A DNA stretch of 36,197 nt from a virus, in IMG/VR virus record IMGVR_UViG_3300003323_000534, positions 1-36,197 of that record; one strand, 5' to 3'. The position numbers were made by a program, and so were the translations under genes. Within the stretch, counting starts at the first letter, position 1; each line of letters opens with the position of its first letter. The notes under the pieces are model-generated. The model ran no database searches and had not been told where the DNA came from. It worked only from the letters and a program-made list of their open reading frames with translations. Shown here piece after piece: positions 21,444 through 23,197 of this stretch.

Positions 21444-22307
21444 TCAGGCGGCGATCGTGTCTAGCGTGTCCGGTGGCGGCTGCCCGCCGATCGCGACGAC
21501 GGGACGCGGCTGCCGCTTCCGGAAGGTCGTCGCCTTGCTGACGCTGCGGAGCGCCTCGCCGGAGACGTGCGTGTAGATCTCGGTCGTCTTCGACGAGGCG
21601 TGACCCATCCACTCCTGCACCGCGCGCAGGTCCTTTGTCTCGTCGTACGCAGCCGTGCCGGCGGCATGCCGGAGAGCATGGGTGTTGATGCCGACGCGGT
21701 CCTTGACCACGCGGTAGGTCGTCGTGATGTGCTGGTGCCCGCCGAACCGGCCCGGGAAGTAGTACCCCTCGCTCCCGAGGTCGCGCTCAAGCTCGTTGAG
21801 CGCTGCGATGAGGTCCGGGTCGTCGAGCGGTACGACGCGCTCCTTGTCGCCCTTGCCACGGACGACGAGCTTCGAGAACTGCCGGTCCTGGATGCGCAAC
21901 CCAGTGATCTCGTTGAGCCGAAGGCCGCAGGAGCGCCCGAGCAGGATGATGGCGGTCGACCGAGCGTCAGCACCGTCGAGGCCGGTCGAGACGTCCTCGT
22001 CAAGGGCGACCCGAGGGATGCGCTTCGGAATGCTGATCGGCTTGAGCGGGTACGCCGGGTCGTGCGAGACGAGGCCCCGCTGGTGCGCCCACGCGTAGTA
22101 GGCACGGAACGACGAGCGGAACGACTTGCGGTACTCGGCGGAGAGCGTGCGCCGGTCGGCTAGGAACTGCTCGAGGTCGTCGACGGTGACGGTGGTGAGG
22201 TCGGGGTGCGTCCGCTTTAGGACGTCGAGGTGGTACAGCCGAAGCTCGACCGTGCGCTGCGCGAGGCCGGTGGCGTCGAGGTGGTTGCGGAACTCCTTGA
22301 GCTTCAT
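21444..22307 (-). CDS. int: tyrosine-family integrase
   Basis: 287 residues. Catalyses recombination of attP with the host attB. An N-terminal SAM-like core-binding domain (1-95) is followed by the catalytic domain with all signature residues: Arg130 (CGLRLNEI), Lys152 or Lys155 (GKGDKER), His210 and Arg213 (HALRH), His236 (GHASSKTTEIY) and Tyr245. ATG with AAGGA 9 bases upstream. It lies downstream of the repressor on the same strand, and the attachment site lies inside that repressor gene. There is no separate arm-binding N-terminal domain of the lambda type. Confidence 0.92.
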   Translation of the reverse strand: MKLKEFRNHLDATGLAQRTVELRLYHLDVLKRTHPDLTTVTVDDLEQFLADRRTLSAEYRKSFRSSFRAYYAWAHQRGLVSHDPAYPLKPISIPKRIPRVALDEDVSTGLDGADARSTAIILLGRSCGLRLNEITGLRIQDRQFSKLVVRGKGDKERVVPLDDPDLIAALNELERDLGSEGYYFPGRFGGHQHITTTYRVVKDRVGINTHALRHAAGTAAYDETKDLRAVQEWMGHASSKTTEIYTHVSGEALRSVSKATTFRKRQPRPVVAIGGQPPPDTLDTIAA

Positions 22308-22446: not shown

Positions 22447-22893
22447 TCAACCGACCGCGGGGAACGCGATGATCGTCGCGTCACCGTCGGCATCCTCGGA
22501 GGGGGCGCGAACGGGCAGGGGAGTGACCGGCGCCAGCGTTGACGCGGCAGTCTCATCACCGGCAGGTTGTTGGTTCGAGTCCAACTCGGGGAGCGACAGG
22601 CCCTCACCCTTCGGGGTGGGGGCCTTTTCGTCGTTCGGGGCCGGCGACGTCGGCTCGCCGTAGAGCACGGCGATCGACACGCCGAGGGCTGCCGCGATGT
22701 CCGCGAGCTCGCGCCCCTTCCATGCGACGCTGCCGCGCAGCCGCTTGCTGATGTCCGTCTGGCCCAGCCCGAGCATCGTTCCGAGCTGCGTCTGGGTGGC
22801 GCGACCGATCAGCAGCGTCTTGATGCGCTGTCCGACCTGCGCGTCCCAGGACTCGGGTTCGTACGCGGGTAGCTGGCTCACTCGTGCGTTCAC
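22447..22893 (-). CDS. HTH immunity repressor containing attP
   Basis: 148 residues from the GTG at 22893. This start has a promoter with -35 TTGCCA and -10 TACTTT ending 8 bases before it, which suggests a leaderless message. A longer GTG start at 22962 is possible. The Cro/C1-type helix-turn-helix (about residues 22-75, TQTQLGTMLGLGQTDISKRL) binds operators. Residues about 97-114 are the antisense reading of a tRNA 3' half, so integration would replace the C-terminal third. The viral-form C-terminus is IIAFPAVG: hydrophobic, but not a classical ssrA-like LAA end. Confidence 0.82.
   Translation of the reverse strand: MNARVSQLPAYEPESWDAQVGQRIKTLLIGRATQTQLGTMLGLGQTDISKRLRGSVAWKGRELADIAAALGVSIAVLYGEPTSPAPNDEKAPTPKGEGLSLPELDSNQQPAGDETAASTLAPVTPLPVRAPSEDADGDATIIAFPAVG
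22553..22604. other. candidate attP core (tRNA 3'-half identity)
   Basis: The top strand reads as an anticodon-loop-like CTCATCA, stem CCGGC, variable AGGTT, a perfect T-arm (GTTGG, loop TTCGAGT, CCAAC) and an acceptor 3' strand TCGGGGA. There is no D-arm or 5' acceptor half, so it is not a working tRNA but the part a phage carries to restore a host tRNA on integration. The CAU-like anticodon suggests a tRNA-Met target; loop position 37 is C, so homology may begin just after it. It lies about 250 bp upstream of integrase, inside the repressor gene. Confidence 0.72.
22599..22628 (+). terminator. terminator next to attP (inside the repressor gene)
   Basis: GGCCCTCACCC pairs with GGGTGGGGGCC around a TTCG loop (one mismatch) and is followed by TTTT on the top strand. 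It lies directly after the tRNA-like 3' end, where a host tRNA terminator would be. The phage may therefore carry tRNA end plus terminator so that the host gene stays intact after integration. Confidence 0.7.
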
Positions 22894-22900
22894 GTGTGTC

Positions 22901-22929
22901 AAAGTACGCCAAACATGCGCGCCTGGCAA
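22901..22929 (-). promoter_or_regulatory. repressor promoter
   Basis: -35 TTGCCA (22929-22924), a 17-bp spacer and -10 TACTTT (22906-22901) on the bottom strand. Predicted start of transcription at about 22894, at the GTG of the repressor. Confidence 0.5.
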
Positions 22930-22966
22930 CGTCTGTCCCAGATTGCGTGCATATGCCGCCACGGCC

Positions 22967-22982
22967 TGTTACAGTCCCACCA
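22967..22982 (+). promoter_or_regulatory. rightward early promoter (extended -10)
   Basis: TG-T-TACAGT (22967-22975) forms an extended -10. The ATG of the excisionase-like gene follows at 22982 without a Shine-Dalgarno site, so the message is probably leaderless. No good -35 is visible. A perfect 8-bp palindrome, GCATATGC (22949-22956), lies just upstream, between the two divergent promoters, and could be an operator. Confidence 0.45.
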
Positions 22983-23197
22983 TGCCGACACGGAATACAG
23001 ATGCCGCCGAGGAATACCTCGACACCGGCGAAGTGCTTGCCCGGGTCAGGATCTCACGCCGAACGCTTGACCGATACGTCAAGTCCGGCAAGCTCCGCGC
23101 CCACACCCTCCCGAGCGGACACCGTCGCTACGCGGTGACCGACGTCGAGGCGCTGCTCACACCCGGACCCTCCCACTCTGCGGAGGACGCCTCATGA
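22982..23197 (+). CDS. excisionase-like MerR/HTH_17 protein
   Basis: 71 residues. The core EYLDTGEVLARVRISRRTLDRYVKSGKLRAHTLPSGHRRYAVTDVEALL is the winged-helix pattern of small excisionase and MerR-like DNA binders. As the first gene right of the repressor, it is either the recombination directionality factor or a Cro-like early regulator. The ATG at 22982 fits the extended -10; an upstream in-frame opening at 22697 is antisense to the repressor and rejected. Confidence 0.78.
   Translation: MPTRNTDAAEEYLDTGEVLARVRISRRTLDRYVKSGKLRAHTLPSGHRRYAVTDVEALLTPGPSHSAEDAS

Follow-up and report, generated by a model that had tools for sequence, protein, structure and literature searches.

An attachment site within the repressor gene points to integration-dependent immunity in a Microbacteriaceae phage

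What becomes of an immunity repressor whose own gene carries the site at which the phage recombines with its host? This question is raised by a 36,197-base virus record, analysed here over its full length and termed the window, whose left end carries terminase and portal genes and which has a repressor gene at 22447..22893 on the minus strand. In its viral form the gene encodes 148 aa plus stop, with GTG at 22893 assumed as the start and a further in-frame GTG upstream at 22962, and its product matched the BetR/HTH_3 domains and phrog_2328 ("transcriptional repressor"). The protein showed 42% and 39% identity to the repressors of two lysogens (G233 and G494, respectively) and 45% over 70 aa to the Dogfish gp33 immunity repressor, and no relative of it was found among the viral contigs searched. 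Directly after the repressor and on the same strand, as the first-pass annotation had noted and as in BPs-type systems, lies the gene of a tyrosine integrase (21444..22307, minus strand; 287 aa). Pfam returned only the SAM-like and catalytic (Phage_integrase) domains and did not find an arm-binding domain, indicating the simple 'armless' type. The integrase C-terminus, DTLDTIAA, is ssrA-like by sequence, and nearly all close relatives end in -AA, mostly as ..LAA.

The first-pass annotation had placed an attP core, read as tRNA sequence, at 22553-22604 inside the repressor gene. Both the location within the gene and the tRNA identity held: bases 22558..22594 (plus strand) exactly match the last 37 bases of tRNA-Asn(GTT) genes and lie antisense to repressor codons 100-112 of 148, near the 3′ end of the gene. 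The boundaries shifted, with the core starting at 22558 and the identity to the host site passing the tRNA end and running through the terminator to about 22628-22639. Since attP, at 22.56 kb, is uninterrupted, the window is not the integrated form. A 29-base part of the core was present in eight viral contigs, and ARAGORN assigned this part to the 3′ end of tRNA-Asn genes in L006 and L008. Viral contigs L002 and L004, which carry the tRNA string without this repressor arrangement, were set aside.

A host tRNA matching the core was recovered when 22556-22640 was searched against 66 genomes of the genus of Curtobacterium sp. VKM Ac-2922. The site was matched in 65 of the 66, and in the 30 loci read it was the tRNA-Asn gene, with identity reaching into the terminator, for example 96% over 82 bp (22558-22639) in G066 and 99% over 71 bp in G055 and G015. 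Other matches in these genomes, which might have pointed to an attB elsewhere, were short and weak. Of 400 genomes drawn from across the family, only 18 matched at E <= 1e-18, including six or more of the same Curtobacterium genomes. On these matches the host is most likely a Curtobacterium, with other Microbacteriaceae possible.

The consequence of integration was predicted by joining in silico the Curtobacterium 5′ half of the tRNA to the window from 22558. ARAGORN recognized tRNA-Asn in attL and attB, and not in attP or attR. In the joined repressor, ..QQPAG-DETAAS.. became ..QQPAG-stop, giving a predicted integrated form of 112 aa that ends SLPELDSNQQPAG and detaching a 36-codon tail, DETAAST..DATIIAFPAVG (22450..22557, minus strand), a feature delimited by the join and by the attR tails of relatives. 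The new stop, TAA, comes from antisense reading of the tRNA anticodon loop, G-T-T-A-A (TTAAC giving GGT-TAA). In effect the host provides, in its tRNA-Asn, a stop codon that is nearly invariant; the other two antisense frames through tRNA-Asn read on. The shortening foreseen by the first-pass annotation was therefore reproduced, but with 112 rather than about 97 codons kept, because the shared core itself encodes codons 100-112. Likewise, the repressor gene is joined to host DNA as had been proposed, but the host adds only the stop codon to the translated protein.

Natural lysogens of relatives showed the same event. The integrase served as query against 367 genomes of the genus of Microbacterium sp. 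18062, the 66 Curtobacterium genomes and 400 family genomes, after which the positions of tRNA-Asn 3′ ends were mapped. The integrases of the lysogens were at most 49% identical to that of the window, and a separate integrase scan of genome contigs gave, among the matches listed, distant integrases only. Fourteen lysogens were found, all of relatives (G107, G112, G131, G155, G232, G233, G249, G394, G407, G417, G478, G494, G625 and G704), with prophages of 8 to 42 kb where both ends share one contig and with the ends of G407 on separate contigs. Each lysogen has one copy of the 3′ end in an intact tRNA-Asn that faces an ORF ending ..LPxLDSNQ[QE]P[AI]G*, and the second copy, attR, adjoins the integrase and carries the lost tail in frame. 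The repressor was cut at the tRNA in all 14, and none kept the viral form, the finding that would have spoken for immunity independent of integration; in those of G233 and G494 the last residue aligns exactly with residue 112 of the window repressor. A chance overlap is excluded by the exact 37-bp tRNA match together with the same arrangement in 14 lysogens.

The N-terminal parts of the lysogen repressors vary widely among prophages. Pfam placed eight of the nine that were scanned in HTH families, one of them weakly, and G478 had no match; the first protein was entered with a slightly shortened N-terminus, outside the HTH. Further viral-form records with attP in the repressor are L005 (identical to L102) and L105. 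The attL/attR pairs allow the viral and prophage forms of a repressor to be read directly from host genomes, and the lysogens indicate that integration-dependent immunity is common among Microbacterium prophages and those of the wider family. Two prophages of the same design, in G107 (C10:467615-475655) and G417 (C1:657038-665273), span only about 8 kb and may be satellites or remnants. Partial tRNA-Asn/terminator matches 2 kb apart in G562 (C2:2769162 and 2771127) are possibly a prophage remnant or small insertion. In nine viral contigs with related integrases (L104, L110, L116, L124, L128, L129, L142, L158 and L160), repressor ORFs run antisense through tRNA-like 3′ ends, some of which are clearly not tRNA-Asn, and the tails in this set often end in -AA.

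The tails themselves are not random. An AA end is seen in 12 and an A end in 19 of the 26 distinct tails, against 3.6% and 14.9% of 2,496 ORF ends from the same loci (binomial p about 3e-11 and 4e-11, respectively); because the tails are mutually related the true significance is lower than these values, and the bias is still strong. The window tail ends IIAFPAVG, without an -LAA or similar ssrA-like end, in line with the earlier suggestion that its end is not of the standard kind, and a related non-standard motif occurs in other phages. This motif, [DEN][AP][VT][VI]..[LFI], was found in 8 of the 26 tails against a shuffle mean of 0.06, a comparison made with a motif picked after seeing the data. 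Its members are EAVITELFA (two), DAVVTELTSKVRAA, DAVVTSITAAI, NAVVIPLRARQ, EAVISSLVVNR, DAVIIPLFA and DATIIAFPAVG of the window, and the tail NPVVVLADRVAS resembles them. Synonymous codon variation at the motif positions points to selection on the peptide. On the integrase tree this second set, slightly more loosely defined, was clustered, needing 4 changes where shuffles gave 9.0.

The tail is on the same side of the crossover as the integrase. The two are therefore inherited together, and a tail can be paired with different repressors. We put forward, tentatively and as a reading more apt to fail than to hold, that tails of this Microbacteriaceae phage set, including that of the window, carry a conserved non-ssrA element, [DEN]AV[VI]xx[LF], as a new degron or silencer able to travel with the integrase and to serve different repressors (examples are EAVITELFA, DAVVTELTSK, DAVIIPLFA, NAVVIPLRARQ and DATIIAFPAVG). 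Such tails raise the question of which protease signals actinobacterial phages use in the choice between lysis and lysogeny. An NVVxLxxR- or PxVxL-like string occurs at the N-terminus of the L013 integrase, at the repressor N-termini of L203 and L213, and in many tails, including L183-L189. A minus-strand frame at 22607-22326, ending ..HSAA, was considered as the true tag reached by frameshifting and was rejected, as codon-position GC gave it no coding support.

Taking these observations together, we consider it highly probable that the window is the viral form of a temperate Microbacteriaceae phage, most likely of Curtobacterium, with integration-dependent immunity. Before integration, the 148-aa repressor would be held inactive by its 36-aa tail, most likely through marking for a protease. 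The integrase, itself tagged by its ..TIAA end, would recombine attP with the host tRNA-Asn gene, rebuilding the tRNA and putting the anticodon-loop stop into the repressor frame, and the 112-aa repressor, free of its tail, would accumulate and shut down the lytic genes. The sequences themselves show attP within the repressor gene, the attB, the truncated repressors in lysogens of relatives, the ssrA-like integrase end and the conservation among tails. By analogy with BPs, the long form would be unstable or inactive, with a protease involved, and the short form would repress and give immunity. The immunity logic proposed by the first-pass annotation is in this way supported by the truncated repressors of the 14 lysogens, with the difference in stability drawn from the BPs precedent.

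Two observations run against this switch model: the window tail lacks -AA, and the divergent neighbouring gene is excisionase-like although BPs-type systems are said to be without an evident directionality factor. The first of these, shared by several relatives, would fit a tail that silences a truncatable repressor by a non-proteolytic route, either by masking DNA binding or oligomer formation or through contact with another protein, as would the varying distance of [DEN]AV[VI]xx[LF] from the C-terminus. We regard this route as unlikely, given that in BPs DNA binding is alike in the two forms and it is the long one that undergoes degradation (PMC4557955) and that nearly half of the tails in the set do end in -AA. 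It is less probable still that the window phage has lost its tag, leaving a long repressor that is stable and active and an immunity independent of integration, with attP still in the gene. The AVG end, unlike that of most relatives, would fit that case, but GC by codon position in the tail is still coding-like in the repressor frame, a conserved motif is shared with tails of other phages and the integrase retains its -AA end.

The overlap might also be incidental, the repressor ORF of an ordinary tRNA-integrating phage running through attP without functional effect; tRNA 3′ ends are the integration sites of many phages, and antisense frames there are often open. This explanation is highly improbable when set against the lysogens, all of which use the one antisense frame that stops in the anticodon loop, with the other two running on in G478, G704 and G625, where all three frames were inspected, and against the non-random tail ends.

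The repressor ORF also contains host-like sequence beyond the tRNA. A hairpin resembling the tRNA-Asn terminator (22595..22639, plus strand), identified by identity, terminator scan and folding, is antisense-coding for the repressor linker EKAPTPKGEG. All 19 folded sites, 18 of them distinct and each either a prophage attL or an attP, gave a strong hairpin just past the tRNA 3′ end, with a mean z of -4.1 against base shuffles. Its sequence varies between phages (the lysogen attL sites include L200, L210 and L217), its other strand codes for repressor, and its T-run is of the intrinsic-terminator type in the window by terminator scan and weak in some lysogens. The hairpin is probably the tRNA terminator, and a phage-borne copy would keep tRNA transcription from running antisense into the repressor gene.

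This is a known kind of switch, the BPs type, here in Microbacteriaceae phages. In BPs, with gp33 as repressor and gp32 as integrase, an ssrA-like tag leads to degradation of the long repressor, and the shortened one is stable (PMC4557955; PMC9262239). The integration-dependent clusters listed in these papers are G, I, N and P, without Giles, which had been offered as a precedent and is dropped here. The window and BPs share adjacent same-strand repressor and integrase genes, an attP near the repressor 3′ end, restoration of a tRNA 3′-end attB, an armless integrase with an ssrA-like end and, by prediction for the window, a shortened repressor with a new stop. They differ in the tRNA (tRNA-Arg in BPs, tRNA-Asn here, with the stop in the anticodon loop), in the window tail without an -LAA-like end, in the host terminator sequence inside the ORF and in the Microbacteriaceae hosts. 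As BPs also acquires a stop codon at attL (PMC9262239), a stop from the host has a precedent, and what is particular to this group is its position in the tRNA-Asn anticodon loop. We call the window a variant of the BPs type because its viral repressor lacks an ssrA-like end; what it adds is the non-ssrA tail set, the anticodon-loop stop, the hairpin carried within the gene and the occurrence across Microbacteriaceae.

Integration-dependent immunity with tRNA attB sites is also described in Gordonia phages (PMC5559632). Among them UmaThurman, EricDab and Dogfish, small cluster CW phages, have the gene order excise/repressor/integrase as in the window and integrases 35-38% identical to that of the window, but use other tRNAs and have tails ending AAA (Dogfish), WAA (EricDab) and IPA (UmaThurman). 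In Bifidobacterium, such immunity was predicted in silico from both prophage ends for Bb423phi2 and 689b-1 (PMC6109161), the same reconstruction approach applied to other hosts and another phage type and framed with an ssrA-like tag. In the literature searched, which took in few subscription journals, we found no report of integration-dependent immunity in prophages of Microbacterium or its family.

Upstream of the repressor, a divergent gene (22982..23197, plus strand) encodes a small MerR/HTH_17 protein that matches excisionase families, with a Cro-like role also possible; UmaThurman and EricDab have a gene annotated 'excise' at the same place, whereas BPs-type systems are described as having no evident recombination directionality factor (PMC9262239). 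The 88-bp gap between the divergent genes (22894..22981) is the putative control region. No clear operator palindrome was seen in it, and a promoter scan gave no matches. A single copy of CATATG, which forms the centre of the BPs operator half-site CGACATATGTCG, is present in the whole window, and it falls within this gap at 22950-22955.
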